Shown here in pieces: positions 6,201 through 47,381 of a DNA stretch of 47,381 bases. A program made the position numbers and the translations under genes. The stretch's first letter is position 1; the number at the start of each line of letters is the position of its first letter. Source of the DNA: Clostridia bacterium (GTDB lineage Bacteria; Bacillota; Clostridia; Oscillospirales; Acutalibacteraceae); assembly GCA_017507805.1 (NCBI GenBank), contig JAFWAC010000001.1:87695-135075 (forward strand). The letters are read 5' to 3'. The notes beneath the pieces are model-generated. The model was not told the origin of the DNA, did not search any database, and saw only the letters and a list, made by a program, of their open reading frames with translations.

Positions 6201-6295
6201 AAGGAAATTGGAAGAAACTCCAATTAAAATATTGGCGGAATTGATTACAAACTGACCTGTCTGTGCATAATAGTTTTAAAACCAAACTTTAATGC

Positions 6296-6325: not shown

Positions 6326-6403
6326 AAAATGATAAACTGAAACTTTTTATATCTTGGGTGTGAGATATATTACATATAAATATTTACGGAGGAAATTTTT
6401 TTA

Positions 6404-8242: not shown

Positions 8243-8274
8243 TTTAGTTAAAACACAGTTAAGGAGAATTTAAA

Positions 8275-8715: not shown

Positions 8716-8716
8716 T

Positions 8717-11954: not shown

Positions 11955-11968
11955 AAGGAGCTAATCCC

Positions 11969-17763: not shown

Positions 17764-18041
17764 AAAAGATTTTAAGCCTCCTGTGCGCCTTAATGCTTCT
17801 CCTGAGCAATAATATTTTCGCTTCGGCGGTTGTTGATGTGCCCGATGTTTTCGGTGAAAGATATGCCGAATTTGATGTGAATGTTGACGGAGCCTTTAAT
17901 ATCCGCGATTTGGTTAGGATTAAAAAATATGTCAGCGGTGCGGCGGTGATTGTCAACCGTAATTGGGTCAATAATAGCTTGAGCGATGCTGAGCTTTTGG
18001 TAATGATGATGCAGGCGCTTTTGAAGGGGGATGGAGAATAA
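17760..18041 (+). CDS. Small secreted dockerin-like protein
   Basis: 93 aa from ATG 17760, overlapping the GH110 stop. A signal peptide of about 23 residues is followed by one good dockerin calcium loop, DVNVDGAFNIRDLVRIKKYVSG (D-x-N-x-D-G...N-x-x-D-L), and a second, degenerate half (NNSLSDAELLVMMMQALLKG) lacking the D-x-N-x-D ligands. There is no catalytic or binding domain: the whole mature protein is about the size of a dockerin. Dockerins bind cohesins in cellulosome-like assemblies; no cohesin was recognised in the window. Its stop shares one base with the start of the 1704-aa gene, so the three genes are translationally coupled. Confidence 0.75.
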   Translation: MKKILSLLCALMLLLSNNIFASAVVDVPDVFGERYAEFDVNVDGAFNIRDLVRIKKYVSGAAVIVNRNWVNNSLSDAELLVMMMQALLKGDGE

Positions 18042-27908: not shown

Positions 27909-27923
27909 GGGGAGTGACGGTAA

Positions 27924-28829: not shown

Positions 28830-28843
28830 CGGGGGGCTGTTAT

Positions 28844-29704: not shown

Positions 29705-29746
29705 TATTTGCTGATTTGAACCCACTTTTCAAGAAAGGAAAAGAGT

Positions 29747-31840
29747 ATGAAAAAAATTGTTAAAAGACTGATTTCAGTTCTTGCGGCAGCAACGGTACTC
29801 ACCGCCTTTGCACCGACTGCTTCGGCGGATGTACCTTACAGGTCATATAATTATAATTCATACGGTGAGGCAGTTGAATCCGCAAATATATACGAGCCAT
29901 ATTTAGTGTTGAGTGGCGAAAAAATCAATGCGGGCGGATTTATTGCCCCAAACGATGTTTTTGTTAAGGGTGACATTTTATATATTTTAGATTCGGGAAA
30001 CAATCGCATTGTGAAATACGGCTTGACCGATAAAGCCGTGTCAGAATATTTGGTTTCCGATAACGGTAATTCGGTTGAGCTTAACAAGGCAACAGGAATT
30101 TATGTTGATGACGGCGGCACCGTCTATATAGCGGATTCGGGCAATCAATGTGTTTGGGTTTGCGGTGCGGACGGTGCTGTTAAGGCTCAGGTTACTAAGC
30201 CTGAAACGGAATATTTCCAAGAGGGGCTTGAGTTTCTGCCGCGAAAGGTGGTTGGAGATGCAGTAGGCAACATCTATGTTCAGTGTACGGGTGTTTATGA
30301 GGGACTTGTGATATTTGACAGCGAGCTTGACTTCAGCGGATTTTTCGGCAGTGAAAAGGTGCAGACCACTGCCCAGCTTTTAAGAAATTATTTTTGGAAG
30401 CAGTTTATGACCGGTGAGCAAAAGGAAGCTATGGCAAACTATGTCCCGAGTGAAATTTACAGTATGGATATGAGTGCCGATAATTTTCTTTACACCATAA
30501 CCCCCGGCAGTCTGGTAAGCGGTTTAAGCTACAAGCAAAGCGCTGACAGCATCAGGTGTCTTAACCCCAAGGGCTCGGACATACTTGAAAGCTTTATGTC
30601 GAAGGATGTGAGCAGAGCCTTTGACAATGAGAACAGATACCTTAATTTTATAGATATTTGCTATTCCGAAAGCGGCTTTATTAATGTTATAGATAATAAG
30701 CAGGGCAGGATTTATCAGTTTGATAATAATATGCAGCTTGTCTCTGCCTTCGGCGGAGTGGGTGATTATACAGGCACCTTCCAGCAACCGATTGCGGTTG
30801 AAAGCTACGGCGATGATATTCTTGTTCTGGATTCGATAAAAAATACCGTTACATTTTTCTCCCTCACCAAAACCGGTGAAACGGTACACAGGGCATTAAC
30901 CCTTTATAATGACGGTAATTATACTGCATCCATTGAGCCTTGGTATGAGGTTATGGAAGCAAACCCGAATTTTCAATTGGCCTATATCGGTGTCGGAAAC
31001 GCACTCTTTAATGAGGGTGAATATAAAAGGGCGATGGAATATTATGAAATTGCCCGCGATACTACGGGTTACAGTAACGCATACCGCGAATACCGCGTAA
31101 TGTTTATGCGTGAAAATTTCATTTGGATTGCGCTGTTGCTTGTGGCGGTTTGTGTGATTTTCAAGGCTTTTAAGGCTATATTGAACAAAAAGGGAATTTT
31201 TCTTTCAAAAAGGCTTTATGCAACGGATTTTGGGATGGTGCTTTATTCATCCTTCCACCCGATGGTAGGGTTTGACAGGCTTCGAACCCGAAAAATCAAG
31301 TCGAACGCATTTTTAGTCTTTGTCTACCTGTTGCTTGTTTTATTGGGTGTATGTGAGCAACAGTATATGGGTAAGGCATTCGTTATAATCGATTCCTCAG
31401 AAGTGAATATCATAAGCGTTGCTTTGGTGCGGCTGGCGCTCCTTCTGCTTTTCGTTGTTGCAAATTGGGCCTTCAGCGAGCTTATGACGGGTAAGGCGAC
31501 CTTTTCTCAGATATGCACCTTCACCGCCGCCTCGCTTATGCCATACATAATCAGCGGATTTATAAGGGTTATAATGAGCAGATTTTTGGTTGAAAATGAA
31601 GCAGTATTTATGTCGGTTGTTTTGTCGGTTGGCATTATTTGCAGCTTTGTAGTCCTTATGGTAGCTTTTGCTGTTTTTCATGAGTTTGAGCTTGGGAAAT
31701 CCCTGTTTTCGTTTGTTGCGACCGCAATAGGAATGCTGTTGATAGTGGTGTTGGTTTTCCTTATTTACAACCTCACCCAGAATGTTATAGATTTTATTAA
31801 AACCTTATTCAGTGAGCTGATGTTCAGGATAAATTCTTAA
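29747..31840 (+). CDS. NHL-repeat / TPR / YIP1-domain membrane protein
   Basis: 697 aa. Signal peptide ending near TASADVP; an extracellular NHL-type beta-propeller (about 50-385) with repeats such as PNDVFVKGDILYILDSGNNRIVKY, GIYVDDGGTVYIADSGNQCVWV and IAVESYGDDILVLDSIKNTVTFF; a TPR-like pair (about 390-440, AYIGVGNALFNEGEYKRAMEYYEIA); one membrane segment near 459-478; then a YIP1-type domain (about 490-690, FHPMVGFDRLRTRKIKSNAF) with five more membrane segments. From memory, YIP1 and DUF5696 genes accompany sugar ABC transporters in other Firmicutes, with no defined role. It could gate, organise or sense at the importer. AAAGGAAAAG precedes the ATG. Confidence 0.8.
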   Translation: MKKIVKRLISVLAAATVLTAFAPTASADVPYRSYNYNSYGEAVESANIYEPYLVLSGEKINAGGFIAPNDVFVKGDILYILDSGNNRIVKYGLTDKAVSEYLVSDNGNSVELNKATGIYVDDGGTVYIADSGNQCVWVCGADGAVKAQVTKPETEYFQEGLEFLPRKVVGDAVGNIYVQCTGVYEGLVIFDSELDFSGFFGSEKVQTTAQLLRNYFWKQFMTGEQKEAMANYVPSEIYSMDMSADNFLYTITPGSLVSGLSYKQSADSIRCLNPKGSDILESFMSKDVSRAFDNENRYLNFIDICYSESGFINVIDNKQGRIYQFDNNMQLVSAFGGVGDYTGTFQQPIAVESYGDDILVLDSIKNTVTFFSLTKTGETVHRALTLYNDGNYTASIEPWYEVMEANPNFQLAYIGVGNALFNEGEYKRAMEYYEIARDTTGYSNAYREYRVMFMRENFIWIALLLVAVCVIFKAFKAILNKKGIFLSKRLYATDFGMVLYSSFHPMVGFDRLRTRKIKSNAFLVFVYLLLVLLGVCEQQYMGKAFVIIDSSEVNIISVALVRLALLLLFVVANWAFSELMTGKATFSQICTFTAASLMPYIISGFIRVIMSRFLVENEAVFMSVVLSVGIICSFVVLMVAFAVFHEFELGKSLFSFVATAIGMLLIVVLVFLIYNLTQNVIDFIKTLFSELMFRINS

Positions 31841-31853
31841 AGGGAGTTGCGTT

Positions 31854-34064
31854 ATGAAAAAAATTATTGCTTTGGCATTGACAATTTGCATTGCGTCAGT
31901 CTCCCTGACCGCCTGCTCCTCTGAGGAAATTGCAAAGGAAGCGGCGGTTGACAGCTACAGCCTGCCAAAGGGTGAGAGCTATACCGATATTAAAAGCAAC
32001 GAGTTTGTTCCTTGTGCCCAAAGCGGTGACCTTAGCCTTAGCTTTCAGCCCAGCACCACACAGTTAAAGGTGGAAAACTCAAAGGACGGCTCGGTTTGGT
32101 ACAGTAATCCCCAAAATGCTTCGGAGGATATTAATGCAAAACAGCTTGTCAAGCTGCGTATGATGTCCACCTTGGAAATTGAATATACAAATCTGTCCAC
32201 CAAGAAACGGACTACCATTAATAACTACACCTCAAATGTGAAGTCGGGAAAATATGAAATCTCGATGATTGAAAACGGCGTTATTTTTAAATATCCCTTT
32301 ACCGAGGTTGGCAAAAATGTCTTTCTGGCGGTATATTTCGAAAAGGGCGCTCTGCTGACCAGATTTTGGTACGAGGATTTTGATGAGAAAAAGCCCGATG
32401 TTGAGATAAGCGCGGTTTCGGTGTTGCCCTACCTTGTGCGCGGCTTTATGGGTGAGGAGGGCTATCTCTTTCTGCCTGACGGCTCGGGCGCTACGGTTGA
32501 TTTCTCAAATATTGTTTACTCGGGAAATGCTTACGCAAGAAATATCTACGGCTATGAGCCCACACTGATAACCTCTGATTATTACCTCGATGTAAATAAA
32601 AATTCGGTTTATTTACCCGTATACGGAGCAAAAGTGGGGGAAAGCGCCGTAATGGCAATATGCGAGAAGGGTGCGGAGTACGGTGTCCTCACAGCGGAGG
32701 CTTGCGGTCAAACATCATCCTATGCAAGGGCTTATGTGAGCTACAAGCTTTTAAACTCGATTGAATACAAGGTGGGAAACACAACCACCGAGCTGTTTGA
32801 TAAGGTTGGCTCCTCTTTAGATTATATAACAACGCGCTATATTTTCCTTGATGGCGAGGATGCCGATTACAGCGGAATGGCAAGAGCCTACAGGGATTAT
32901 CTGATTGGGGATTTGCAATTAAAGGATACCGCAACCGCTTTGTATACAGATATTTATGCTTCGGTTATAAAGAAGGCTTCAACGGTTGGCGTTCCGCACA
33001 ATAAAACGGTTTCGCTCACCGATGCGGCGGAGCTTGAGGGTATTATCGAAAGATTGAATGCTGAGGGGATAGAGGACATCACCGTAAGATACCGCTTGTG
33101 GAATTCGGATGAAATCAAGGGCAAAAAAATTAAATCTGCCAATTCGGCGGCAGGAATATCCTTTAAAGCAATCAAGAATATAAAAAATGCTGAGATTTAC
33201 CCTGCTGTGCTGAGCCTGCACACCTATTCTAACGGAAGCTATTTTGACAGGCTGATTAATGCCGCGAAATCTATCACACAGCTACCCTTTTCATGGAAAA
33301 AGCATAAGCTCAGCAACCTGAATGAGACGGGTGAAGCGGAGTACAGGGTATCAATCGATTGGTTTTGCAAAAATTCCGATAAGCTTATTGAAAGGCTTAA
33401 AAGCAAGGGCATCAGCAAGCTTGCGTTGGGTGATGTGGCAAACAGTCTTTATTGCGATTTTAAGGGTGAGGGCGCTAAAAGAGACAAAACCCGTCTGGTT
33501 ATGAGTGAGTTTATAAAGCAGAGCGATGAAGCCTTTGAAGGGCTTATGCTTGATGCGGCTAACGCCTATGCCGCACCCTTTGCGGATATTATTTATAACG
33601 CGCCTGTCTGCCACAGCAATCATGACATACTTTGCAAAAGCGTTCCTTTTTACACAATGGTTATGAGTGGCATTGCCGATTGCGTTGCTCCTGCTTACAA
33701 CAGCGGTGTGGCTGATAATGCACTGCTTAATACCGTGGCTTCGGGCGCAGGCTTCTGTGTTGCCTGGATGTCTGCGGAAATGACCGAGCTTTCGGGCACA
33801 CAGCTCAGCGGTCTTTCAAATGTTAATTTCGCACAGACGGTGGATGATACCGTATCGTTATACAAAAAGGTGGATGCGGTATATTCCAAAATAAACGGAA
33901 GCCGTATTTACGCGCACAATTATATTAATGACTCTGTCAGCCTGACAGAGTATGAAAACGGGCTTCAGATATATGTCAATTTCGGCAAGGAGCCGTTTGT
34001 TCTTGAGGACGGCACACAAATTCCTGCCGAGAGCTTTACAGCAAGGGAGGGTGAAGGGCAATGA
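31854..34064 (+). CDS. DUF5696-family lipoprotein
   Basis: 736 aa. Lipoprotein signal with lipobox LTAC (Cys21). The N-terminal beta-rich part (LSLSFQPSTTQLKVENSKDGSVWYSNP) is followed by GYLFLPDGSGATVDFSN and a C-terminal half (about 360-680) with alternating strand/helix blocks ending in short acidic motifs (VSIDWFCKNSDKLIERLKSKGI, KLALGDVANSLYCDF, FEGLMLDAANAYAAPFADII), suggestive of a glycosidase-like TIM barrel. The DUF5696 call is from memory of its setting and wording. It is exposed outside the membrane and overlaps the next permease by 4 nt. Likely role: glycan trimming or handling beside the transporter; no catalytic residue can be assigned with confidence. Confidence 0.72.
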   Translation: MKKIIALALTICIASVSLTACSSEEIAKEAAVDSYSLPKGESYTDIKSNEFVPCAQSGDLSLSFQPSTTQLKVENSKDGSVWYSNPQNASEDINAKQLVKLRMMSTLEIEYTNLSTKKRTTINNYTSNVKSGKYEISMIENGVIFKYPFTEVGKNVFLAVYFEKGALLTRFWYEDFDEKKPDVEISAVSVLPYLVRGFMGEEGYLFLPDGSGATVDFSNIVYSGNAYARNIYGYEPTLITSDYYLDVNKNSVYLPVYGAKVGESAVMAICEKGAEYGVLTAEACGQTSSYARAYVSYKLLNSIEYKVGNTTTELFDKVGSSLDYITTRYIFLDGEDADYSGMARAYRDYLIGDLQLKDTATALYTDIYASVIKKASTVGVPHNKTVSLTDAAELEGIIERLNAEGIEDITVRYRLWNSDEIKGKKIKSANSAAGISFKAIKNIKNAEIYPAVLSLHTYSNGSYFDRLINAAKSITQLPFSWKKHKLSNLNETGEAEYRVSIDWFCKNSDKLIERLKSKGISKLALGDVANSLYCDFKGEGAKRDKTRLVMSEFIKQSDEAFEGLMLDAANAYAAPFADIIYNAPVCHSNHDILCKSVPFYTMVMSGIADCVAPAYNSGVADNALLNTVASGAGFCVAWMSAEMTELSGTQLSGLSNVNFAQTVDDTVSLYKKVDAVYSKINGSRIYAHNYINDSVSLTEYENGLQIYVNFGKEPFVLEDGTQIPAESFTAREGEGQ

Positions 34065-34948
34065 AAAAGCTTTCTTACGAGCGCAAAAAGGCATATTACG
34101 GATATTTGTTTATATCGGTCTGGGCTATCGGTTTTATATTTTTCTTTCTATCACCCTTTATCACCTCTGTCAGGTACAGTCTTGCAGAGGTAACTATACA
34201 GCAGGGCTATGTAGGGCTTAATTCCTGCGGATTTAATAATTACATAAATCTTTTCATAAAAAATCCCGAGTTTATGCCCGCCTTCACCGATACAGTTACT
34301 TCTGTTGCGGTGAAATCCCCCTTAATAATAATTTTTTCCCTTTTTGTGGCGGTTGTACTCAACCAAAGCTTCAAGGGCAGAACATTTTTCAGGGCAGTTT
34401 TCTTTTTGCCGGTTATAATCGCAGGCGGAATTGCCATTGAAATCATTAACGGAAACTATTATTTGGGGCTTATCACCACCGGGGGACGGTCAGATTCACT
34501 GTTTGAGTCCCAATCAATAGCCCAAATGCTTGCAAATTCGGGTGTTCCGCAGACAGCGGTGGATTACATTATTAAAACCGTTAATGAAATATTCGGACTT
34601 TTGTGGAATTCCGGAATACAGATACTTATTTTCATAGCAGGACTTCAATCAATTCCCACAACACTTTACGAGGTGGCAAATGTGGAGGGCTCGAACGGGT
34701 GGACAACATTTTGGAAGGTAACCGTTCCAATGCTGGCGCCGATGCTTATTGTAAATGTTTTTTACACGGTTGTTGATAATATGATAAGCTTTTCCAACGA
34801 AATGTTTAAGCTTATAGACGGGTACCTCAACAATCTCAAGTTTGATGAAGCCGCGGCGATGGCGATTATCAATTTTGTGATAGTGTTCGTAATGGTTATT
34901 TTAATTTATGTAATCGGAAACAAGAGTGTTTATTACGCGGTTGATTAG
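34061..34948 (+). CDS. Sugar ABC transporter permease (LplB/MalF type), pair 2
   Basis: 295 aa, about six membrane segments. Opening RKKAYYGYLFISVWAIGFIFFFLSPF and the EAA loop YEVANVEGSNGWTTFWKVTVPMLAP are typical of CUT1 permeases. ATG overlaps the DUF5696 stop (ATGA), giving strong coupling. Partner of the next gene; the cognate binding protein is probably the lipoprotein at 37665, since the first solute-binding gene precedes pair 1. Confidence 0.92.
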   Translation: MKKLSYERKKAYYGYLFISVWAIGFIFFFLSPFITSVRYSLAEVTIQQGYVGLNSCGFNNYINLFIKNPEFMPAFTDTVTSVAVKSPLIIIFSLFVAVVLNQSFKGRTFFRAVFFLPVIIAGGIAIEIINGNYYLGLITTGGRSDSLFESQSIAQMLANSGVPQTAVDYIIKTVNEIFGLLWNSGIQILIFIAGLQSIPTTLYEVANVEGSNGWTTFWKVTVPMLAPMLIVNVFYTVVDNMISFSNEMFKLIDGYLNNLKFDEAAAMAIINFVIVFVMVILIYVIGNKSVYYAVD

Positions 34949-34960
34949 GTCGCGGGGAAG

Positions 34961-35974
34961 GTGGAACAGAAATTGAGCTTTATTGATAAAATTCAAAAAC
35001 AGCCTGCCCTGAAGCCCTCGGTGAGTATTCTTGAAAATTCCAATAAAAAACAGGTCATTAATCGGGCATCAAATTTGATTTGGGCGATTGTGAGACTGAT
35101 TTTGCTGATAGGGCTTTCCTATATCGTGCTTTACCCGATTATATTTTGCCTGAGCCTGAGCATCAGACAGCCTAATGATATGATAGACCCAACGGTTATA
35201 TGGCTGCCGAAAAATCTGACCTTTGATAACATTAAATTCGTCCTCGAAAACATTGGTTTTCCCGAGGCGTTCGGCAAATCAATGGCGATTTCGCTTTCCT
35301 GCTCATTTTTGCAAATGATGAGCTGTGCGATAACGGGCTATGGCTTTGCACGCTTTAAATTTAAAGGAAGGAACATTATTTTCCTTTTGGCGCTTATGAC
35401 ATTCATAGTGCCGCCACAAATAATTTCAATGCCGCTGTATATACAGTATTCAAAAATCACAATAACCACTTCACAGCTTTTCGGCGGAGACGGTATTCAG
35501 CTTATTAACACGGTAACGCCGATAGCCCTTGCTGCAGTATTTGCGCAGGGTATAAAATCGGGACTTTTCATATATTTGTTCAGGCAGTCCTACAAGGGAA
35601 TGCCAAAGGAGCTTGAGGATGCCGCTTATCTGGACGGTTGTGGCCCGATAAAGGCTTTCACAACCATAATGTTCCCCAATTCAACCCCGATTTTGTTGGT
35701 TACCTTTGTGCTCAGCTTTGTGTGGTATTGGAATGATTATATTAACATCTCGCTGTTTTTCAACAAATCAAAGCCGCTGTCGGTGCTGCTTGCAAGTGTT
35801 ACCGATATGTTCGGCAGAATGATTTCTCCTGCCGGAGGCGGATATACCTCTATTGAGGTGACGGTTTACGAAACAACATTTTGCCTTATGTTTATACTGT
35901 TACCGATTATTTTATATGTGTTTTTACAAAAGAAATTCACTGAATCGTTAATGAGCACAAGTATTGTAGGATGA
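34961..35974 (+). CDS. Carbohydrate ABC transporter permease (MalG/YtcP type), pair 2
   Basis: 337 aa from GTG 34961 with GGGGAAGG upstream. A hydrophilic N-terminal stretch of about 40 residues is longer than usual; then six membrane segments and the EAA loop LEDAAYLDGCGPIKAFTTIMFPNSTP. It forms the second channel with the gene just upstream. The extended cytoplasmic N-terminus is the only oddity. Confidence 0.92.
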   Translation: MEQKLSFIDKIQKQPALKPSVSILENSNKKQVINRASNLIWAIVRLILLIGLSYIVLYPIIFCLSLSIRQPNDMIDPTVIWLPKNLTFDNIKFVLENIGFPEAFGKSMAISLSCSFLQMMSCAITGYGFARFKFKGRNIIFLLALMTFIVPPQIISMPLYIQYSKITITTSQLFGGDGIQLINTVTPIALAAVFAQGIKSGLFIYLFRQSYKGMPKELEDAAYLDGCGPIKAFTTIMFPNSTPILLVTFVLSFVWYWNDYINISLFFNKSKPLSVLLASVTDMFGRMISPAGGGYTSIEVTVYETTFCLMFILLPIILYVFLQKKFTESLMSTSIVG

Positions 35975-36014: not shown

Positions 36015-37475
36015 ATGAAAAAAGCACTTATATTTATATGTTGTTTTGCATTGTTGGTGACAGTTTGCTCCTTTGCCGTTTCCGCAGAAACAAGTGTGTT
36101 TAAAATTTCTGATATTGAAGGAAAATATAAGACGCAAGGCAGAACGGAATTAGTAGATGATACTTTATTTATGGATTGGTCTGCTTCGGGTATAGAATTT
36201 AGTGCTAACTGTTCGGGTGATGTATCCATTAAAGTTAATACAACCCGAATCAGAATTACTTCCGGTGATACGGGCGGAATTTATTTTACTGTTGTTATTG
36301 ACGGGGTTGTTCAATATAGCGAGTTGCGAATACCCAAAGACAATAATGCAACCCGTTGGACATCTAATTCAACAAAATATCCGTTTGTAATCAGAAATAA
36401 AGGGATAACCGAATTTGTAATAGCCAAGGATCTTAGTCCGGGTGTGCACAAATTTGAAATTTATAATCAAACAGAGGCTAATGACGGAGCTTTCGGTATT
36501 CAAAGCATTTCATTGAATGGTGAAATTTTAACTAAAAAAGGCAATAATGAGTTATTAATTGAATTTGTGGGCGATTCAATTACGGCAGGATATGGCAATA
36601 TATCTGTAGGAGGTAAGGGTCGTCCGCTTTATCAGGATGCCACAAGAGGGTGGCCGTATCTTACGGCAAAAAAACTCAATGCCGATTGGTCTGTAATTGC
36701 TCAAAGCGGAATTACAGCAAGCAACGGAGTGGGTTGGTCGGCAGGTGCGGTCTCAATGCAGACAGTATACCCAAAGCTACGATACTATTCAAATAATATA
36801 ACAAATTATGATTTCAAACGAACAGCAGATATTGTTGTGTTGGGGCTTGGAACAAACGATTTGTGGACATATCAAAACTCCGGAAAGTCACTCGATTATC
36901 TTAAAGGTGAGTTTCAGGAAATGATAAAGCTTGTTAGAAAACACAATCCAAATGCCAAGATTATCTGGATTTACGGTATGATGATAAATACTGCTGACGG
37001 GCTTATTAAAGGTGCGGTTAAGGAATTAGGCGGTTCAAAAAACGGAATATACACTTTATCGTTACCAAGGAATGTAGCAGGCGGTGAGGGACATCCGGAC
37101 CTTTCGGCACAGCAAAGCTATGCGGATTCGTTATCAAGCTTTATTAAAGCTGTATTGAATAATACCGTGCTTGACGATGAGCCTGTGAGTGTGCCAAATA
37201 ACTCGACCAATAATTCGGGAAATTCTACTGTTGAGAGTGAACAGCAGAGCGCTTCGGATTATACAAGCGAATCATCCGGCAGTATTTCTAATGATAAAAC
37301 AACGGTTGATAATCAAGACGCACAGGAAGAAAGTGTAGATACTGCAACTAACACAGAACAAAATAAAACAGCGAAATCCCCGGACAATTTTTTAATTATT
37401 ATTTCGATTATTGCTTTTATTTTGATTGCCGGTCTTATATTTATCATTTTTAGTCTGATTAGAAAACCAAAATAA
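36015..37475 (+). CDS. Membrane-anchored CE2-like SGNH esterase
   Basis: 486 aa, AAAGGAGG before ATG 36015. Signal peptide (1-25), a beta-rich jelly-roll-like domain (about 30-175), then an SGNH domain: GDSITAGYG with Ser188, GLGTNDLW, and GGEGHPDLSAQQSYADSL. The Asp of the usual triad is missing before the His, which from memory fits carbohydrate esterase family 2, known to use a Ser-His dyad and to have the same jelly-roll plus SGNH layout. A Ser/Thr/Asn-rich linker (about 390-455) leads to one membrane segment (about 457-479) and a KPK tail, so the enzyme stands on the outer face. Expected activity: deacetylation of plant or host glycans. Confidence 0.82.
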   Translation: MKKALIFICCFALLVTVCSFAVSAETSVFKISDIEGKYKTQGRTELVDDTLFMDWSASGIEFSANCSGDVSIKVNTTRIRITSGDTGGIYFTVVIDGVVQYSELRIPKDNNATRWTSNSTKYPFVIRNKGITEFVIAKDLSPGVHKFEIYNQTEANDGAFGIQSISLNGEILTKKGNNELLIEFVGDSITAGYGNISVGGKGRPLYQDATRGWPYLTAKKLNADWSVIAQSGITASNGVGWSAGAVSMQTVYPKLRYYSNNITNYDFKRTADIVVLGLGTNDLWTYQNSGKSLDYLKGEFQEMIKLVRKHNPNAKIIWIYGMMINTADGLIKGAVKELGGSKNGIYTLSLPRNVAGGEGHPDLSAQQSYADSLSSFIKAVLNNTVLDDEPVSVPNNSTNNSGNSTVESEQQSASDYTSESSGSISNDKTTVDNQDAQEESVDTATNTEQNKTAKSPDNFLIIISIIAFILIAGLIFIIFSLIRKPK

Positions 37476-37664: not shown

Positions 37665-39077
37665 ATGAATAAAAAAATATTACGCCGATTAAGCTGTTTT
37701 CTTTTAGCCGTGGCAATGCTTTTCCTTGCCGCCTGCGGAAACGGCGCTGCCTCTAAGCCTGCAGGGGATAACGATTCGTCAGCAGGTACATCAAGCGGTT
37801 CTCAGAATGTTTCGGAAATTGAAATGCCCACAGCCGACCTTTCTGATAACTCAAAGGTTTTAAAGGTTTTCGGTTGGTCAACAATGGCTGAAAACAACAC
37901 AGACGGTGAAGCGGCAGAGTATTTTAAGGAGGAATTCGGTGTTACCATTGAGGAGACCGTTTCCACCCACGAAACCTATTGGACAGACCTTGCCAAAATG
38001 GTGGCGGCAGGTAATGCTCCCGATGTGGTTGACTGCTCCTACGATAAGTTCTGGCCCGTTCCCGTTTCGGAAAACCTGCTTGAGCCATGGGACGGTTTAA
38101 TTGATTTCGATTCTCCCCTTTGGGCAAACACCAAGGAACAAACCGAGCAGATGAAATGGAAGGATAAAATTTATTTCCCCATAATCAGCGAGTTTGTTCA
38201 AAGCTGGGTATATTACAATAAAAATATGTTCAAGAACTACGGTCTTGAGGATATGACCCCCAGAGCCTTGTACGAGAGAGGCGAGTGGACACTTGATAAG
38301 CTGATTGAAATTTCGGATAAATTCATTGAGAAAAACAACAAAAACGAAATCATTCAGTGGGGCTTTACCCCTCAGAACCTTGAGCCTATCAGTATTTCAG
38401 GAGTTCAGATTGTTGAAATCATTAACGGCAAGGAGTACAAAAACAACCTTAAAGACCCACGCATTGCAAAGGTAATGAACGCTTTTTATACCATAAGCGG
38501 CGCAGGCTCGGGCTCAATGTCGGTTAAGGATGCCTGTCCCTTGTTTGAGCAGGAAAAGGTTGCAATGCTTTTCTCTCATGCTGATATCGTGCTTCAAAGA
38601 CGCTTTGAGCATCTCCGTCAGGCAGATGCGCTTGGCTTTGCCCCCATGCCAAAGCTTGATAACGAAAGCGGTCACAATGTGGAAATTTCGCTCGACCCCG
38701 GCTACGGTCTTATCAAGGGTGCCAAGAACAAGGAGCTTGCAACCCTTTGGGTAAACTATCTCAAATGGTTCCGTTTGGGCGAAAACCTTTGCGTTGAAAT
38801 TCCTGCTGCCGAAAAATCGCCCGCAGCAGAGCGCTACAATATCAAGCCCAAGGCAGGAAGCGCCACTTTAAGCCAGGAGGATGTTGATTTTATTAACGAA
38901 TTTTTGGCTACTAACCCCACCAAGGTTTACACAAACTATCGCAGTATCATACGGAACTTTGGCGAGATGCTTGATGTTTACAAGTGGCAGGTTTTTGCAG
39001 GCTCTGCACAGTGGTCGGCGGTTGTTCAGCAGTTGTATCCTACCTATGAGACACGGCTTAAGGATTATATAAAATAA
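37665..39077 (+). CDS. Extracellular solute-binding lipoprotein (family 1)
   Basis: 470 aa. Signal peptide with lipobox LAAC (Cys24) and a low-complexity Ser/Gly linker. Solute-binding features: VLKVFGWSTMAENNTDGEAAEYFKEEFG, WTDLAKMVAAGNAPDVVDCSYD, WVYYNKNMFKNYGLED, GEWTLDKLIEISDKF, and a C-terminal lid LATLWVNYLKWFRLGENLC. It should catch an oligosaccharide and hand it to a permease pair, probably pair 2 (genes at 34061 and 34961). AAAAGGAG precedes the ATG. The following giant gene begins only 21 nt later. Confidence 0.92.
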   Translation: MNKKILRRLSCFLLAVAMLFLAACGNGAASKPAGDNDSSAGTSSGSQNVSEIEMPTADLSDNSKVLKVFGWSTMAENNTDGEAAEYFKEEFGVTIEETVSTHETYWTDLAKMVAAGNAPDVVDCSYDKFWPVPVSENLLEPWDGLIDFDSPLWANTKEQTEQMKWKDKIYFPIISEFVQSWVYYNKNMFKNYGLEDMTPRALYERGEWTLDKLIEISDKFIEKNNKNEIIQWGFTPQNLEPISISGVQIVEIINGKEYKNNLKDPRIAKVMNAFYTISGAGSGSMSVKDACPLFEQEKVAMLFSHADIVLQRRFEHLRQADALGFAPMPKLDNESGHNVEISLDPGYGLIKGAKNKELATLWVNYLKWFRLGENLCVEIPAAEKSPAAERYNIKPKAGSATLSQEDVDFINEFLATNPTKVYTNYRSIIRNFGEMLDVYKWQVFAGSAQWSAVVQQLYPTYETRLKDYIK

Positions 39078-39098
39078 AAAATGAAGGTAGCTGATTAT

Positions 39099-42000
39099 AT
39101 GAAAAAAGGTTTTAACCGTATAACAGCCATACTTTTAACAGCAATTTTGGCGGTGAATAGTATGCTTATTGTTATGCCTACATTGTTTGCTGAAAAGGCT
39201 GTTGAAAAAACCCCGGTTTTGCCCTTGTCGCCCTTTAATGCAAACGGCATCGGCGGAGCTGACGCAGAGGTTAAGACAAACACAAAGCTTTTTGCTCAGA
39301 CCGATTCGGTCGTAATAAGCTCGGATACATATTTGCAGGGTATCATTGCCGAAGCCCCCAAAAAAGACAACAGTGTAAGCTCGGTTGTTAAGGTAACACC
39401 TATGATGGGAAGCTCTGCTATAACCTACAATTATGCAACCGTTACCCATTTGTTTGAAAAAACAATTAATTTAACCGAGGAAAAGGGCCTGAAAATCGAA
39501 ACGGTTTCGGGTAGTGAATATTCCGTTGCGGACACTACGGCAAGTCAGGCTTATGCCAATATTGCATATTCCAAGCGCAACAGCTTCGTTGGCGCAGACG
39601 GTGTTATGTTTTATTTGAAAATAGATGGCGCTAATATCGTTGCACCCAACTTTGCGGCATTTGTGCCTGAAACTGCAGGGCGCTGGACCTATGATTTTGA
39701 CCCCGTTTTAATGCTGATGGTCGGAAAAACATATTCATATAAAGCCCTCAACGCAAATTCCTGGACCACTGCAACTGCGATACAGGACAAGGAAGGCAGT
39801 GTCTACTTTGGCGCAATGAAATTCGACTCTGCCTTTGAGGGTTATGTTAAAATTCCGCTTGACTCCTTGGGTAATGATTTAGGGTTCAAGTTTAAGCCCA
39901 ATCAGGACTCATTCAAGCTTATGTGCGTTAAGGCAAGAGGTCTTGGCGGAAAATACGGCACAATAACGGCAGGCCCGTATTTTGTCATTAATAAGGACAG
40001 CACCTCTGCAAAAATCGAGGTTAATAATGCTTCCTTTTCGGCGGCACCTGCAAACATAGGTGCTAAGCTAAGCGGCTTCAAGCAACCTCTTAAGGATACC
40101 GATGCTTTGCTCGTTTATGTTAAAACAGATTCCGCCAACCGCATAACGGTCAGCGCCAATATGTGGGACGATTATCTTGGCGATATTCCGTCCTTAATGT
40201 TAAAGTCGGACGCGGTCGTTTATACAGCCGCTTTGGGCGCAGAGAAATGGACTAAAACCAAAACGGTTAAAACCGAAACAGACGGTGCGGTGCAGTTTGA
40301 CAAGGCTTTTGAGGGATATATTAAAATCCCGATTTCGAGCCTTAAGGAACAGGAAGCAAGCCCGTTTATAGCAATTTATCCCGAAATAGATTACATTACG
40401 GGTGTTGAAATCTCTGCCGCAGGAATTGGCGGAAAATTCGGAAAAATTGAAGCGGCACCCTTCCTTATCAATGATGATAAGGGCACAACGGAGTTCGAAA
40501 TTTCCGATGAATACAAACCGCCCGTTGTTCAGGCAACAGAGGTTGTTCCCGTTATGAACACAGAGCTTCAGCGCGGAAATTGGCAGACAGTAACCCATAC
40601 CGAGGTTAAGCCTCTTGATTACACCAATGCTACGGCAAGTCAGATGACGGCAAAGGCGGCAGAGGGCTATGAACGCCCCGATGATATAACTTCGTCTCAG
40701 GCTTATGCTAATTTTAAGCTTAATGATATTTCGCTGAACGGATATGAGGGTTTGGTGTTCTATGTTAAGCTTGAAAGCGCAAATACCGTAATGCCGCAGA
40801 TAGCGCTTAATATACCAAGTGACACCACCCGCTGGAGATATTCCTGGGACCCGATAATGGTGCTCAAGGTGGGCGGGTATTATGAATATATACCCATAAC
40901 CGGCGGAGAATGGAAGACCGGCACAGCCGTTGCAGGCAAGGCAGGAAGCGAATATTCCGGAGCAATGCAATTTGATACCGCCTTTGAGGGCTATATTAAG
41001 ATTTCCTTCGATAGCCTTGATAATGACAGCGGTTTTATTATGGACACCGCTTTGGATACCGTTAAGAACATTGTTTACAGAGCAAAGGGCTTGGGCGGCA
41101 GCTACGGTCAGGTGACATTAGGCCCGACAATGCTTGTCACCAACGATGGCTCCGAAGGGATTAAGCTGAAGGAAGCAGACCCCATTATTGTTGAGCCTGT
41201 AACAGATGTAGAGTCCAATCCAACATCTAATAAGGTCACCCAAACGGTTGTCACACCCCTTGATTGGACCGATGCGATTGGACTTAAGATTACAGCCACC
41301 TCGCAATATACAAACGATTATCCTGCAAATTCCTTGGCTTACGCAAGATATAAAACAGACGGTAATTTTGTGCTTGGTGATGCCACTCATGTTATCTGGT
41401 ACATCAAGACCGATTCTGCAAACACCGTTTTGCCGAGAATAGGTTATGCAGGCTCAGAGCTTAATATAAGCTATGACCCTGAAATGACCTTGGGTGTCGG
41501 TAAATCCTATTCCTACCTGCCAATCGGCGGAGACAAATGGATTTCTGCCACCTCGGTTCCGACATGGAAAAACGGCAACACAGTAAGCAATACCTATTTT
41601 GGCGGAATGCAGTTTGACGGGCCTTTTGAGGGATTTGTAAAAATCGCCGTAGCTGATTTATCTAACGATAACGCAAGAATTAACAATGCAGACCGCGCCA
41701 CCACAAAGATTTCAAACTTTATTGTGTCGGCTTCAAAAATCGGCGGAAGCTACGGCTCGGTTACAGCAGGCCCGATTTTTCTGACAAGCAACGATACCGA
41801 CTCCCCCGTAATAAAGCTTTATGAAGCACCCAACGAGAATGCGGATGTTGCCATTAATGCAACCCCCATTTCGGGCGAGCCGACCGTTAAATGTGAGACT
41901 GTAACCCCATTCAGGGGACTGACACTTCAAGGGTATAAGGTTTCGGGAGATAGCTTTGGCATTAACACAAATACACAGCTTAACGGCTCGAACGGATTGC

Positions 42001-44747
42001 TTATCTATGTTAAGACCGAGAAGGATGCGGTTATAACACCGAATATTAACGGAAGCTTTTATTTAACCGCCGGCGGTACTTATAGCTTGCTGTCCTTCAG
42101 CGATGTTAAATGGACAAAGGCAACAGCAACCGCCAATGGCTCGGTTGAATTAGAAGCAGGCTTTGAGGGATATATAAGGCTTCCCCTTACCTCGCTTGCA
42201 GATAATAAGCAGGATAACCCCAACGGTATACTTTCATCGGTAAGCTTCGGTGTTGAGAGTGGTAATACCATGATTTTGGGCCCGATAAGTCTTATCACGA
42301 ATGTGGGCGAGGGCACAGAGGTAATTTATCCTGCTTCCTACGATTCCACAGACCCTTATGAGCGTATTCAAGGTATTTTTGAACGCAGTAAGGCAGGGCT
42401 GGCGCAGGGTTATTACTATATGATAGGTGACAGTACGCGCCATTTGTACGGCTACCCGATTTTCCGTATAGTAAGGGATGCTTTGAAGCAAAAATATAAT
42501 ATGAACTGTACCGTTCAGGCACTCAGCGGCTTGAAGGCGGAGCATTGGAGTGGTTATACCCCCGGTCTTGACGGCCCGCTTTTCCCGACCGTTGAACAGC
42601 TCATAGAGCAAATCCCCGGAACAGGCAGAAACTGCATTGTTGATTTGGCGCTTGCCATTAATGATGCGGGTAAGGGACCCGAAAAGATTTATGAATTCCT
42701 TATGCTTGGTATCAACAAAATAAGGGAAGCAAAGCCCGAAGCAGTTATAGTTTATACCTGCCCGAGCCTTATCGCATCAAATGCCGCCAACAAGAGTATT
42801 CATGATGCGGCAGAGATGGTTTGGAAGGATAAGAGTATATATAAAATTGATACTATGATGAATGTGTTTGACGGCTACTATTCACAGTACTATGTTGACA
42901 CACATCACCCGAATTCGCTCGGCTACAAGCTTTTAGGTCAATATATTGTTACACAGTATGTTGAGGGAATGTCCTTTGAAAAGATTTATGATGTTGATAC
43001 AAATTCTTACACCCTGCCCTCAGACGCAAAGCCTATTGAAGCTGAATTGAGTGTGGACGCTACCTATAATATGACTGCCGGTGTTTACAGTATGAATGTA
43101 AACGGCACGAATGTGGGCTCAATAAAGCTGAACGGCAGTAAGGCTTTCACAGGCTCAGCGCCCTTCAGCACACAGAACTATATCCAGACCAAATTGTCTA
43201 AGGATATTACAGGCAGTGATTACATAGCCTTCTATCTGAAGCTTCCGAGTGCTAATACGGTGGGACTGCGGGCATTTAATATGCTTGAGGAAAAGCAGGT
43301 TGAAATCATATTCAAGCGTGATATGAAGTATTACATAATGCCGTTAGGCTCAAACAAATGGACCGAAAAGATTAGTGTTGCAGGCAGAAACGATGACATT
43401 GAAACATACGGCGGTCTTAAGTTTGACAGCGGCTTCGAGGGTTGGGTTAAGCTTCCTCTCAGCAGCTTTTACGGCTCACCCTCAACCTCAATAGGCATTA
43501 ACGGTATCACCTTCAGATTTTCGGAGCTTGGCGGCGATTACGGTGAGGTACGCGTAGGCTCATTCTTTGTAACCAACGATAAGCCCTATACCGCATCGAA
43601 TGTTTGGGCGGAGAAGGACCTTCCCGTTATGGAACCCCTTACAGCAATTGGAAAGCTTGATTCTGCTCCTTGGGTAAATAAGGATTATATCGCAAGTCCG
43701 CTTCCTTCGCTTACCAAAAATCCCGCGCTCGTTATCAGCTCATCACCGGCTGCTGATTATCAGGGCTTGGATTACGGCAGTTCCACCCATTGGGTATCAA
43801 CCGAATATGATAATGTGCCGATCGGTAAGTATTCGCATCTTGCATTTTATGTAAAGGTGCCCAAGACTAAGGAAAATGCATTTATATTGCATATGTGGAC
43901 CGATTCTGAAAACGGTGATAACGGAATATTCCAGATAATGGCGAATTCCTCTGTTCAGTTGTTGCCGATGGGTGAAACCAAATGGCAGCACATTGTCACC
44001 GAAAGGGTTGTAAACAGTATCGGCGGAGTGCCTCTGCCGGCAGGCTTTGAAGGCTTGGTCAAGATTTCCTACGCAAGTATGTTCCCTGCCAACAGAGTCA
44101 GTGAGGACGCCCGTTTGTCAAAAATCGCCTATCGCTTTAAGTATATAGGTATGGGTAGCGAAAGGGTAATTGCCGGCCCCGTGTTTGGTATATTGCAGGA
44201 TAACGATACAGGCCCTGACGAGCTTGTTTATACCTCTATGCCGGAAGCCACAACCATAAAATCTCTCTACCAAATAGAGGATAGTGACAGGTTTGTTGAC
44301 AGCGTTATGCTTTATTGGGAAGCCTTCGAGGGTGCTAAATACTATATTGCTGAGGCATATTCCATAACCAAAACCGACACCGGCTTTGAATACCGCTTGG
44401 TGTCAAGCAACAGATGCGTTCCTAACAGCGGTGTAATTACCGACCTGATGCCCGGAAAAAGGTATGCGGTGCTAATTAAGGCATACGATATCAGCGACAA
44501 GCTTTTGGCAATATATGATTATACAACTGTTGAAACCCCCGAAACCGAGGATTATACCTATGCATCGGTTTCCGACAAAATGGAGTATGATAAGGTTTAC
44601 TATGCCGATAAAAACGCAGGTAGCAGTGACAATACATCAAGGTCGGTTGTACGGTATCTGGTAATAGGCGGCGTGAGCATGGTGTTGCTTTCGGGCGCGG
44701 CAGTAGTATTTGCAGTTATTAATAAAAGGAGGAAGAAGAATGTTTAA
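39099..44747 (+). CDS. Giant surface protein: seven FEGY modules, internal SGNH domain, FN3-like domain, TM anchor
   Basis: 1882 aa from ATG 39099 (GAAGG 11 nt upstream; ATG 39081 lacks a site and would lengthen the signal peptide). After the signal peptide come five FEGY modules (central motifs near nt 39831, 40302, 40980, 41622, 42160), then an SGNH-like domain with YMIGDSTRHLYG (Ser1112), ALAINDAGKG and VDTHHPNSLGY (Asp1267, His1270), two more FEGY modules (43431, 44043), an FN3-like domain (VMLYWEAFEGAKYYIAEAY), and a C-terminal membrane segment with a KKRRK-type tail (NKRRKKNV). It is therefore cell-anchored. Likely a glycan-binding scaffold with built-in esterase activity; the modules match no family I recognise. 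It overlaps the next gene by 8 nt. Confidence 0.75.
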   Translation: MKKGFNRITAILLTAILAVNSMLIVMPTLFAEKAVEKTPVLPLSPFNANGIGGADAEVKTNTKLFAQTDSVVISSDTYLQGIIAEAPKKDNSVSSVVKVTPMMGSSAITYNYATVTHLFEKTINLTEEKGLKIETVSGSEYSVADTTASQAYANIAYSKRNSFVGADGVMFYLKIDGANIVAPNFAAFVPETAGRWTYDFDPVLMLMVGKTYSYKALNANSWTTATAIQDKEGSVYFGAMKFDSAFEGYVKIPLDSLGNDLGFKFKPNQDSFKLMCVKARGLGGKYGTITAGPYFVINKDSTSAKIEVNNASFSAAPANIGAKLSGFKQPLKDTDALLVYVKTDSANRITVSANMWDDYLGDIPSLMLKSDAVVYTAALGAEKWTKTKTVKTETDGAVQFDKAFEGYIKIPISSLKEQEASPFIAIYPEIDYITGVEISAAGIGGKFGKIEAAPFLINDDKGTTEFEISDEYKPPVVQATEVVPVMNTELQRGNWQTVTHTEVKPLDYTNATASQMTAKAAEGYERPDDITSSQAYANFKLNDISLNGYEGLVFYVKLESANTVMPQIALNIPSDTTRWRYSWDPIMVLKVGGYYEYIPITGGEWKTGTAVAGKAGSEYSGAMQFDTAFEGYIKISFDSLDNDSGFIMDTALDTVKNIVYRAKGLGGSYGQVTLGPTMLVTNDGSEGIKLKEADPIIVEPVTDVESNPTSNKVTQTVVTPLDWTDAIGLKITATSQYTNDYPANSLAYARYKTDGNFVLGDATHVIWYIKTDSANTVLPRIGYAGSELNISYDPEMTLGVGKSYSYLPIGGDKWISATSVPTWKNGNTVSNTYFGGMQFDGPFEGFVKIAVADLSNDNARINNADRATTKISNFIVSASKIGGSYGSVTAGPIFLTSNDTDSPVIKLYEAPNENADVAINATPISGEPTVKCETVTPFRGLTLQGYKVSGDSFGINTNTQLNGSNGLLIYVKTEKDAVITPNINGSFYLTAGGTYSLLSFSDVKWTKATATANGSVELEAGFEGYIRLPLTSLADNKQDNPNGILSSVSFGVESGNTMILGPISLITNVGEGTEVIYPASYDSTDPYERIQGIFERSKAGLAQGYYYMIGDSTRHLYGYPIFRIVRDALKQKYNMNCTVQALSGLKAEHWSGYTPGLDGPLFPTVEQLIEQIPGTGRNCIVDLALAINDAGKGPEKIYEFLMLGINKIREAKPEAVIVYTCPSLIASNAANKSIHDAAEMVWKDKSIYKIDTMMNVFDGYYSQYYVDTHHPNSLGYKLLGQYIVTQYVEGMSFEKIYDVDTNSYTLPSDAKPIEAELSVDATYNMTAGVYSMNVNGTNVGSIKLNGSKAFTGSAPFSTQNYIQTKLSKDITGSDYIAFYLKLPSANTVGLRAFNMLEEKQVEIIFKRDMKYYIMPLGSNKWTEKISVAGRNDDIETYGGLKFDSGFEGWVKLPLSSFYGSPSTSIGINGITFRFSELGGDYGEVRVGSFFVTNDKPYTASNVWAEKDLPVMEPLTAIGKLDSAPWVNKDYIASPLPSLTKNPALVISSSPAADYQGLDYGSSTHWVSTEYDNVPIGKYSHLAFYVKVPKTKENAFILHMWTDSENGDNGIFQIMANSSVQLLPMGETKWQHIVTERVVNSIGGVPLPAGFEGLVKISYASMFPANRVSEDARLSKIAYRFKYIGMGSERVIAGPVFGILQDNDTGPDELVYTSMPEATTIKSLYQIEDSDRFVDSVMLYWEAFEGAKYYIAEAYSITKTDTGFEYRLVSSNRCVPNSGVITDLMPGKRYAVLIKAYDISDKLLAIYDYTTVETPETEDYTYASVSDKMEYDKVYYADKNAGSSDNTSRSVVRYLVIGGVSMVLLSGAAVVFAVINKRRKKNV
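41247..41785 (+). repeat. Duplicated FEGY module, copy 2
   Basis: Encodes VTPLDWTD through AGPIFLT, the fourth module of the 1882-aa protein, and aligns with 18224-18780 at DNA and protein level without gaps except the 18-nt insertion present in the other copy. Here the loop reads WKNGNTVSNTYF, with no calcium-type ligands. Confidence 0.85.
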
Positions 44748-46308
44748 AAAATATTTTAAACCTATGCTGTCTGCTCTGCTTATAGTATTTTTAGTGCTTT
44801 CGGTTGCAGGCTGTGGAAATGTGAACACTTCCTCTGATAATACAGGCTCCTCTCCGGAGGAGCTGCCCACCCTTGATATTGACATAAGCGGAAATAAAGA
44901 GGGAAGCGCGGTTGTTGAAAGGAGCTACACAACCCTTTATTCTGACAGCGACAACCTGCTTCACCAAAATCCCGAACGGGGACTGAGAGGCTTCTTTTCC
45001 TTGATGCATTTTAATGTGAGCAAGGATGAAATTATTGACGAATTGCAAGGTCAGTTGGATAGCTGGTATCCCAGAACACAGACACCGATAGCGGTTTGTT
45101 ATTTCTTCCCCGGCGACTATCTCGGAAAAAAGCTTGATGACGACTTCTTTGCCTCTGCGCAGGCGGCATTTGATTTTTTCCGCGAAAACAAAATTCAGAT
45201 ACTTTTAAGATTTGCATACTATGATGTCAATGTGTTTAACGAGCGCACCCCCACCACCGAGGAGCTTTTACTCCATATTGACCAGCTTGCCGAAAACGGA
45301 ATTATTGAACGCAACAAGGATCTTTTACATGTGTTCCAAGCAGGCTTTATCGGTCAGTTCGGTGAGTGGCATTCGGATGTTCCGCGTGCTGACAGAACCG
45401 CGGTTTTAACCGCATTCGCAGATAAGCTCTTGCCTGACGGTGTTTATTCTCAGTTGCGAAATCCTAAATATAAGGATTTCCTTGCTGACGATAACCCAAA
45501 GAAAAATATGATAGGCTTCCATAATGACGGTTGGTTTGGTATTCAGGATACCACCGGACTTGGCAATCAGGATTATAGCTACGGCTTAGAGCCTTGGAAC
45601 CGACAGGTTAAAGAGGGCGCCTATGTACCGAATGACGGTGAATTTTATTACTATTCACAGTTTGAAAGCTCAATCGGTTACTATCCTGACGGCTATGCCT
45701 GTATCCTCGGTATGTCGGAGCTTAGATTTACCACCTTCAGCGCTATAAACGGATGGCTTGATAACGGCGGACTGAAGGACGGCGTTATGGTTAATTGTAT
45801 GAAGCAGCCCATAACAACCAAATGGCTTGAGGAGTACGGCTTGCCCTATTCCGAAAATTGGTTCAAGGATGCAGAGGGAAAGGCTGTAAGACGCAATGCC
45901 TACGAGTATATGCGCGATTATCTCGGCTACAGGCTTACCGCCAACACACTTTCGGTTAAAGAAAAGGATAAAGAGAATTTGCTTGTCACCTTAACCCTTG
46001 AAAATCACGGATTTTCTGCGGCTTTTAATATGACAAGCAGGCTGGTTATTCTTAATTCTGATAACAAAGAGATAAGCAGTGTAAGTTTCGGGGACCCGAA
46101 AACCTGGCACAGCACAAATCCCGATGATTATAAAGACCGCAAACAGCTTGAGCACGCGATTTCTGCCGATATTAAGCTTCCTAATGATAAGGGCGAATAT
46201 AAGCTTGCTTTACAGCTAAAGTCAAAAGGAGGTGGAACAGCTCGTCTGGATAATAACATTCCTTTCGAGGAAGGTTATAATATTTTGCATACCTTTAAAG
46301 TAAAATAA
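44740..46308 (+). CDS. DUF4874/DUF4832 lipoprotein
   Basis: 522 aa from ATG 44740 with the strong site AAAGGAGGAAG; it overlaps the giant gene by 8 nt. Lipobox VAGC (Cys25). The mature protein is essentially the same unit as the C-terminal third of the 1704-aa protein: RSYTTLYSDSDNLLHQNPERGLRG, VCYFFPGDYLGKKL, FFRENKIQILLRFAYYD, FGEWHSDVP (Glu209), EFYYYSQFE, RRNAYEYMRDYLGYRL, NHGFSAAFN and RLDNNIPFEEGYNILH. DUF4874 looks like a TIM-barrel glycosidase fold and DUF4832 like an accessory beta domain; the invariant Glu in GEWHSD is a candidate acid/base. No activity is established to my knowledge. Confidence 0.82.
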   Translation: MFKKYFKPMLSALLIVFLVLSVAGCGNVNTSSDNTGSSPEELPTLDIDISGNKEGSAVVERSYTTLYSDSDNLLHQNPERGLRGFFSLMHFNVSKDEIIDELQGQLDSWYPRTQTPIAVCYFFPGDYLGKKLDDDFFASAQAAFDFFRENKIQILLRFAYYDVNVFNERTPTTEELLLHIDQLAENGIIERNKDLLHVFQAGFIGQFGEWHSDVPRADRTAVLTAFADKLLPDGVYSQLRNPKYKDFLADDNPKKNMIGFHNDGWFGIQDTTGLGNQDYSYGLEPWNRQVKEGAYVPNDGEFYYYSQFESSIGYYPDGYACILGMSELRFTTFSAINGWLDNGGLKDGVMVNCMKQPITTKWLEEYGLPYSENWFKDAEGKAVRRNAYEYMRDYLGYRLTANTLSVKEKDKENLLVTLTLENHGFSAAFNMTSRLVILNSDNKEISSVSFGDPKTWHSTNPDDYKDRKQLEHAISADIKLPNDKGEYKLALQLKSKGGGTARLDNNIPFEEGYNILHTFKVK

Positions 46309-46328
46309 AATTTTAAGGAGCGATTTTT

Positions 46329-47381
46329 ATGAAAAAAACTTTAGCATTGTTGCTTACAGTAGTATTGCTTTGCACATCATTATTCACTGCAATACCCGTT
46401 TTTGCAACAACAGAAAACTCTGCCCCCATTAGCGCAATCCCACTTGTTGGATTTACAAAGGGCACATATTGGAGTGAGGTGGCAACCCATGATTTGGTAA
46501 TGCCTGAAGCTACCCAAAAATTTGCCATTGCGGACGGTATAAAAATGACATCCGCAACGGGCGCACAGCAGGAATTTGAAACCTTTACAGGCGGCAAAAT
46601 TTTGGCAACAGCGATTTATGACGAGAATACCTATACAATGCCCGCAGATTTTGCGACTAACGGAAGCTTTATTATTTATGTAAAGGTTGACGGAGCAAAT
46701 AAGATGTATTTTGCTGCAAGAACCGATTGCCCTTCCGGTTGGTATACTACAGCCTGCCTCAAAGCCGGCGCGGATTATAAGTTTGCCGCTATCGGTGACA
46801 GCGCTTGGACAACTGCAACAGCAGATGAAAACGGTATAATTGATTTTGCACAGGCGTTTGAGGGATATATTAAAATTTCTGTGGCATCACTGAAAAGTGT
46901 GGACGGTGTTGCAAGAACATTTAAATATTTGAGCCAAGCATCACTTTATTTCAAAGGAATTGGCGGAGATTACGGTAATATAGTTGCAGGCCCCTTCTTT
47001 ATAACCACCGAGGATTCCACATCTACAAAAATCACCGTTCCCGAGGAGTACAGACCTCAGCCAATTAATGCAACACCCCTTACAGGTTATACAGCATCAC
47101 AGGTTTTTGATAAAGTGAATGTCAGCTTAACAATGCCCGAAGCAACAAAGAAATTCGTTACTGCAGACGGTATAAAAATCATCTCTAAAACTACAGCTGG
47201 CTACAGCTACGAAACAACATCTGCCAGTCAGATTTTGGTACGAATGGGATACGATTTAACATCTGCAAAGCTCGGTTACAAATTACCTGCCGATTTCAAA
47301 TCAAAGGGTAGCTTTATTATGTATGTAAAGACCGACAGCGCAAATAAGATGCATTGGCAGTTTACAACCACTTGGGGAGCA
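46329..47381 (+). CDS. Secreted FEGY-module protein, 5' part only
   Basis: Open from ATG 46329 (AAGGAG upstream) to the window edge, 351 codons without a stop. Signal peptide ending near IPVFATTEN. One complete FEGY module (SFIIYVKVDGANKMYFAA, core QAFEGYIKI at nt 46855, GIGGDYGNIVAGPFFIT) is followed by the start of a second (SFIIMYVKTDSANKM-like, with the run SFIMYVKTDSANKMH). It lies 20 nt after the DUF4832 gene and is the third repeat protein of the locus. Total length and C-terminal domains are outside the window. Confidence 0.85.
   Translation, partial: MKKTLALLLTVVLLCTSLFTAIPVFATTENSAPISAIPLVGFTKGTYWSEVATHDLVMPEATQKFAIADGIKMTSATGAQQEFETFTGGKILATAIYDENTYTMPADFATNGSFIIYVKVDGANKMYFAARTDCPSGWYTTACLKAGADYKFAAIGDSAWTTATADENGIIDFAQAFEGYIKISVASLKSVDGVARTFKYLSQASLYFKGIGGDYGNIVAGPFFITTEDSTSTKITVPEEYRPQPINATPLTGYTASQVFDKVNVSLTMPEATKKFVTADGIKIISKTTAGYSYETTSASQILVRMGYDLTSAKLGYKLPADFKSKGSFIMYVKTDSANKMHWQFTTTWGA

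Follow-up and report, generated by a model that had tools for sequence, protein, structure and literature searches.

A recurring FEGY module with a predicted CBM-like beta-sandwich fold in a putative clostridial glycan-utilisation locus

The solved structure 8SMQ, one of the closest known counterparts of the repeated module considered here, is the N-terminal domain of Clostridium difficile CD630_25440 (CASP15 T1176), a surface domain without known function that forms a strand-swapped dimer within an octamer, according to the accessible part of its source (PMC10792529). DUF4832, a domain associated with the module, has been found beside Pel exopolysaccharide synthesis genes, as the available portion of one report describes (PMC7112168), and a rumen Ruminococcus protein with DUF4874, DUF4832 and dockerin is placed in a cellulosomal setting in the accessible text of another (PMC7480376). 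Searches of the literature returned nothing for DUF5696 by name, little for DUF4832, and nothing combining Yip1, NHL repeats and ABC transporters with polysaccharide utilization. FEGY was absent from the matches listed, and the novel-CBM and Oscillospiraceae literature among the matches listed was unrelated.

The window, meaning the whole stretch of 47,381 nucleotides that was analysed, corresponds to C31:87695-135075 and runs to the contig end in a Clostridia genome that is 87.6% complete. Where scanned, positions 612-13807 hold housekeeping genes (RecG, pseudouridine synthase, RadC, RNase J, DnaB, a TilS-like protein and an M41/AAA FtsH-type protease). The genes upstream encode a GLAA-B barrel and beta-helix protein, a GDSL esterase and a divergent AraC regulator; GLAA-B barrel and beta-helix domains are known from GH110 enzymes. 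A seven-gene cassette (25068-35974, + strand) comprises a solute-binding protein (SBP, 946 aa), two ABC permeases, a Yip1/NHL protein, DUF5696 and two more ABC permeases. It is accompanied by a CE2_N-GDSL carbohydrate esterase-like protein (36015-37475, +) and an ABC-type solute-binding protein (37665-39077, +). Further on, contig C24 encodes a SASA esterase, a trehalase-family protein, GH35 and GH43. Inferred from family names, the whole reads as a Gram-positive glycan-utilisation locus.

Five further instances of the cassette order occur in this genome as judged by ORF lengths and the position of DUF5696 (L089, L090 6127-17366, L091, L092 and L093), with the window copy (25068-35974) being the one scanned gene by gene. 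At least seven DUF5696 genes are present in this one 2.3-Mb genome. Contigs C35, C27, C7, C5, C30 and C13 carry nine cohesin matches over the cut-off, which one control genome exceeded too, along with several dockerin proteins; together these perhaps represent a cellulosome-like system.

Three proteins of the locus carry the FEGY units. The 1888-aa surface protein (39081-44747, +) has a hydrophobic N-terminus, five units, an SGNH-like domain, two further units, an FN3-like stretch recognised by eye (Pfam gives at best E 0.015-0.033) and a C-terminal transmembrane helix with a basic tail. It had been described in a first-pass annotation as 1882 aa, which is its length if the Met at 39099 is used, although the ORF itself encodes 1888 aa. 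Its units, all on the + strand and each given with its E-value against a profile from which it was held out, are unit 1 (39351-40043, E 6.4e-39), unit 2 with a short N-terminal part (40050-40523, E 5e-23), unit 3 (40515-41189, E 2.1e-41), unit 4 (41169-41840, E 6.2e-52), the short unit 5 (41823-42350, E 1.8e-12), unit 6 (42993-43628, E 9.9e-19) and unit 7 (43629-44246, E 6.4e-25). The SGNH/GDSL-like domain between units 5 and 6 (42351-42992, +) shows GDS and DTHH blocks by eye, and PF13472 matches this stretch alone at E 0.0023 (18.9 bits, under the cut-off of 32.9) and at E 0.11 within the whole protein.

The 1704-aa protein (18041-23155, +) has a hydrophobic N-terminus, three units, an InlB B-repeat-like domain (PF18998, E 3.9e-6), a fourth unit and a DUF4874-DUF4832 part (21731-23152, +; PF16173 E 2.2e-24, PF16116 E 4.8e-12). 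Its units, also on the + strand, lie at 18140-18832 (unit 1, held-out E 1.4e-59), 18809-19471 (unit 2, an FSGY variant, E 2.2e-34), 19457-20122 (unit 3, E 3.3e-36) and 20705-21364 (unit 4, E 2.3e-16). A stand-alone DUF4874-DUF4832 protein (44710-46308, +), 51% identical to the fused copy and with a lipobox-like N-terminus by eye, separates the 1888-aa protein from the third one that carries units. No PDB sequence matched DUF4874-DUF4832 at E<=1, and a fold model built from the two sequences was poor (pLDDT 52.7) and was set aside.

The third unit protein (46329-47381, +) holds one complete unit (46389-47060, +; held-out E 5.1e-30) and the N-terminal part of a second (47055-47378, +; E 4.5e-5). 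It is cut by the assembly, because the first 76 bases of contig C24 (L009 1-76) are exactly the last 76 of the window (47306-47381). The remainder of the cut unit (profile positions 79-222) and one further unit follow on C24, and the protein ends there in a weak dockerin-like stretch (PF00404 E 0.014, under the cut-off). The window thus contains 13 units in three ORFs (seven, four, and one complete plus one cut by the contig end), and the locus contains 14 with the C24 continuation counted.

Hold-out profiles connect these units across the proteins. A profile of the seven units of the 1888-aa protein recovered all four units of the 1704-aa protein (E 1.4e-59 to 2.3e-16) and both units of the third (E 5.1e-30 and 4.5e-5), and the reverse profile recovered 7/7 units of the 1888-aa protein (E 6.2e-52 to 1.8e-12), while neither the forward nor the reverse profile matched any of 900 residue-shuffled copies. 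When single units were compared, 57 of 66 pairs among 12 units gave E<1e-3, with the database size set to 12. By profile comparison, the units in all three window proteins are one homologous family, in agreement with the first-pass annotation, which had counted about 13 copies of a recurring module and had placed seven, four and at least two of them in the respective proteins. Unit 4 of the 1888-aa protein (41169-41840) and unit 1 of the 1704-aa protein (18140-18832) are far closer to each other than other pairs are, with shared stretches seen by eye, and look as they would after recent copying between the two genes.

The motif order proposed earlier, [FY]Y[VL]K-x-x-[SG]AN-x-[VI]-x-P, then Trp, then FD-x-AFEGY[VI]KI and GG-x-YG-x-x-x-AGP-x-F[LV]-x-x-[DN]D, holds with minor amendments. 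All 12 aligned units keep the Tyr of FYVK, a Gly placed four positions ahead of FD, the Phe and Gly of FEGY and the leading Gly of GGxYG, and the K, W and E are conserved in 11/12, but [SG]AN occurs in only 8/13 units. The conserved Trp lies 35-50 residues downstream of FYVK rather than at about 60 as had been suggested. A regular spacing of 150-200 residues had also been suggested; where units adjoin, the FEGY-to-FEGY distance is 158-225 residues, and two gaps of 424 and 417 residues correspond to inserted other domains.

Pfam and NCBIfam searches with the three whole proteins and 27 single units produced noise-level touches only and no named family for the units. FN3, Big, cohesin and SLH gave no Pfam match at E<=0.1 in the 27 single units, nor over the units in the whole proteins, and the 1888-aa protein alone matched no PDB sequence at E<=1. 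The earlier failure to match the module to a CBM, cohesin, Big or FN3 family is therefore borne out, as no significant match to a named carbohydrate-binding or adhesin family emerged, and as judged by these profiles the unit is a module outside the Pfam and NCBIfam models searched. The surface location of the 1888-aa protein, with its hydrophobic N-terminus and C-terminal transmembrane helix, would suit a role as adhesin or S-layer modules, fixing the cell to a host or to its own wall. However, no SLH, Big or cell-wall-binding family exceeded the cut-off in whole proteins or in the 27 single units, the touches to WxL (E 0.074, 1/27), Big_4 (E 0.018, 1/10) and NCBIfam adhesion_FAF (E 0.06 with the whole proteins; E 0.029, 1/27, with single units) are at noise level, and such a role is considered very improbable.

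Relatives occur elsewhere in the same genome. The window profile found further units on C7 (best E 3.0e-10) and marginal matches on C5, C34 and C13 (E 0.003-0.015). A broad 27-row profile, which itself contains rows from C31, C7 and C5, gave 22 matches at E<=1e-4: 12 on C31, seven on C7, two on C24 (one of them the remainder of the cut unit) and one on C5. The C7 proteins combine units with DUF4874-DUF4832, dockerin or fn3, and this second set includes an NHL-type protein, two further DUF4832-type genes (by eye) and DUF5696. On C22, an 871-aa frame lies beside another DUF5696 gene and is truncated by the stretch examined. The frame taken whole matches at E 9.3e-13, and none of its single units scores better than 0.0018.

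Across other genomes, and with the own genome included in each count, the window profile A1 at E<=1e-3 matched 5/200 family genomes and 2/391 class genomes, and profile A3 at E<=1e-4 matched 2/295 order genomes and 1/299 phylum genomes; two same-genus genomes searched with A1 gave 0/2. The broad profile A7, to which the own genome, G059 and G104 contributed rows, matched 9/150 family genomes, again with the own genome included, six of them new (G010, G042, G054, G061, G068 and G095; best E 2.0e-10 to 8.8e-5). The module is rare, at 5/200 family genomes with the own genome included, and it extends beyond this locus; the restriction to one glycan locus that had been claimed is contradicted by the relatives on C7, on C5 (broad profile) and in other genomes. 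The close and divergent unit groups are linked by hhalign through the FEGY motif (96.8% probability, E 2.9e-10), a value favoured by the choice of the divergent rows, which had been picked up with a profile and trimmed according to the motif.

Partner domains of the divergent units, for which part of the evidence rests on weak unit matches, include a GH97 N-terminal domain (G059), BNR with CHB_HEX and a weak dockerin (G153), a putative esterase (G176) and dockerin (C5 and C34 of the own genome). In G042 a GDSL hydrolase (E 5.7e-22) follows one unit and precedes a second recognised by eye. Several unit proteins, e.g. those of 969 and 500 aa in G059, of 770 aa on C13, and those in G095 and G068, showed no named partner over the cut-off. 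In G059, DUF5696, two unit proteins, DUF4874-DUF4832 and an SBP stand in a row. All five family genomes positive with A1 are among the 12/200 with three or more DUF5696 matches (hypergeometric 3.1e-7), a figure for which the threshold of three was picked with the data already in view, the five include the own genome, kinship is ignored, matches (scored apparently up to 6 per genome) may be pieces of one gene, and the sample is apparently the same 200 genomes. Plain presence of DUF5696 over the cut-off (88/200 genomes) gives 0.015. In a 365-aa frame of G061 (L127, C13), a single unit was detected together with a Ser/Pro/Thr linker and a C-terminus that is hydrophobic; a DUF5696 gene lies some 14 kb away on that contig. 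Two genera have similar frames of 411 aa (L125 in G095, L129 in G054), in each of which a single divergent unit was detected, along with a stretch of hydrophobic character at the C-terminal end.

Fold prediction of unit 1 of the 1888-aa protein (39351-40043), modelled as a monomer, gave one compact domain, a beta-sandwich with pLDDT 86 and pTM 0.86, and the nearest solved folds among the matches listed are 8SMQ and CBM11. The module probably helps the cell to hold glycan, because its shape is predicted to match that of established sugar-binding modules. The unit is predicted to be a discrete folded module and is joined to carbohydrate-active domains, in which it agrees with CBMs as a general class: the partners are GDSL, esterase, GH97_N, BNR, DUF4832 and dockerin in relatives, and, as candidates, the SGNH-like domain (under its cut-off) and DUF4874-DUF4832 in the window. 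On balance, the favoured reading is a CBM-like beta-sandwich module, repeated in tandem so as to direct surface proteins to a glycan. The earlier suggestion of a new carbohydrate-binding or surface-layer module is retained in its first part, on the grounds of a recurring module outside the searched families, the CBM-like predicted fold and the carbohydrate-active partners, but not in its S-layer part, as the Pfam search of the whole proteins gave no SLH domain.

We infer glycan binding, its ligand and multivalency from here on. Each CBM-like beta-sandwich module, of about 150-230 residues, would contribute one of several weak glycan-binding sites that act at once on secreted and membrane-anchored proteins, and repetition would raise avidity. 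In the 1888-aa protein the units would keep an SGNH-type esterase attached to a decorated polysaccharide or glycoconjugate, its presumed substrate, and they would likewise keep the DUF4874-DUF4832 protein of 1704 aa and the module-only protein with the weak dockerin-like end on that glycan. The SGNH, DUF4832 and dockerin partners would act on or gather the bound glycan, in a presumed order of events that ends with trimmed products entering via the neighbouring SBP/permease systems. If the units do bind glycans, they would constitute a domain family that the searched Pfam and NCBIfam versions lack, provide annotation for large surface proteins of glycan-degrading bacteria, supply a first functional lead for 8SMQ, a solved but orphan domain, and open a way into DUF5696 and DUF4832. 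A broader reading is advanced tentatively and is rather doubtful: that the units found a CBM family binding a specific glycan, that the same fold explains 8SMQ, and that an undescribed Gram-positive system for glycan capture, used several times per genome, consists of the units together with DUF4832 and the Yip1/NHL-DUF5696-double-ABC cassette.

Among named CBM families, CBM11 of Clostridium thermocellum Lic26A-Cel5E (6R31, 1V0A), a family that binds mixed-linkage beta-glucan, shares the beta-sandwich fold and provides the best Foldseek matches of the model. These matches would fit an extreme branch of CBM11, CBM4/9 or a similar family, as would the touch of 1 of 10 divergent relatives to the CBM_11 profile (E 3.9e-4) and that of one whole protein to CBM_4_9 (E 0.0086, under the cut-off). 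However, the CBM_11 profile (PF03425) has no match at E<=1 in the three window proteins and none in the own genome at E<=0.001, and four CBM11 sequences (matching PF03425 at E<=5.1e-63) are without FEGY and GGxYG at the units' position and have DFEG near the N-terminus instead. Membership of CBM11 by sequence was rejected, with hhalign giving 1.1% probability (P 0.046) for the units and 0.8% for the divergent relatives against these four, a test that is weak for remote links because the shallow CBM11 alignment had only four close rows. CBM29, CBM86, CBM30 and CBM28 are fold matches with Z within the range common to unrelated models and had no sequence match in the PDB searches. Derivation from a named family is thus improbable, and on its model the unit is filed among CBM-like beta-sandwich modules, not in CBM11.

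8SMQ shares the beta-sandwich fold, is the closest of the matches listed by VIA-align and is the only PDB sequence match listed among 177,635 sequences (E 0.05 with a 21-row profile, E 0.0046 with a 27-row profile), but differs from the unit in having only about 10% identity. It is the closest solved candidate relative by sequence and by VIA-align fold and, in the accessible part of its source, is oligomeric (PMC10792529); together with long tandem arrays of up to seven units per protein, this is what stalk or self-assembly modules that space out or oligomerise surface proteins without binding glycan might look like. This is the main rival to the CBM-like reading, although an unlikely one: the units are paired with carbohydrate-active domains in several genomes, some frames (365 and 411 aa) have one detected unit, which is odd for a stalk, and oligomers seen in a single, distant crystal structure need not form here. 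As for the Ruminococcus DUF4874-DUF4832-dockerin protein, the accessible text of its source names no FEGY-like module (PMC7480376), but the unit-DUF4874-DUF4832 protein on C7 resembles it in carrying a weak stretch of dockerin type (E 7e-4, under the cut-off).
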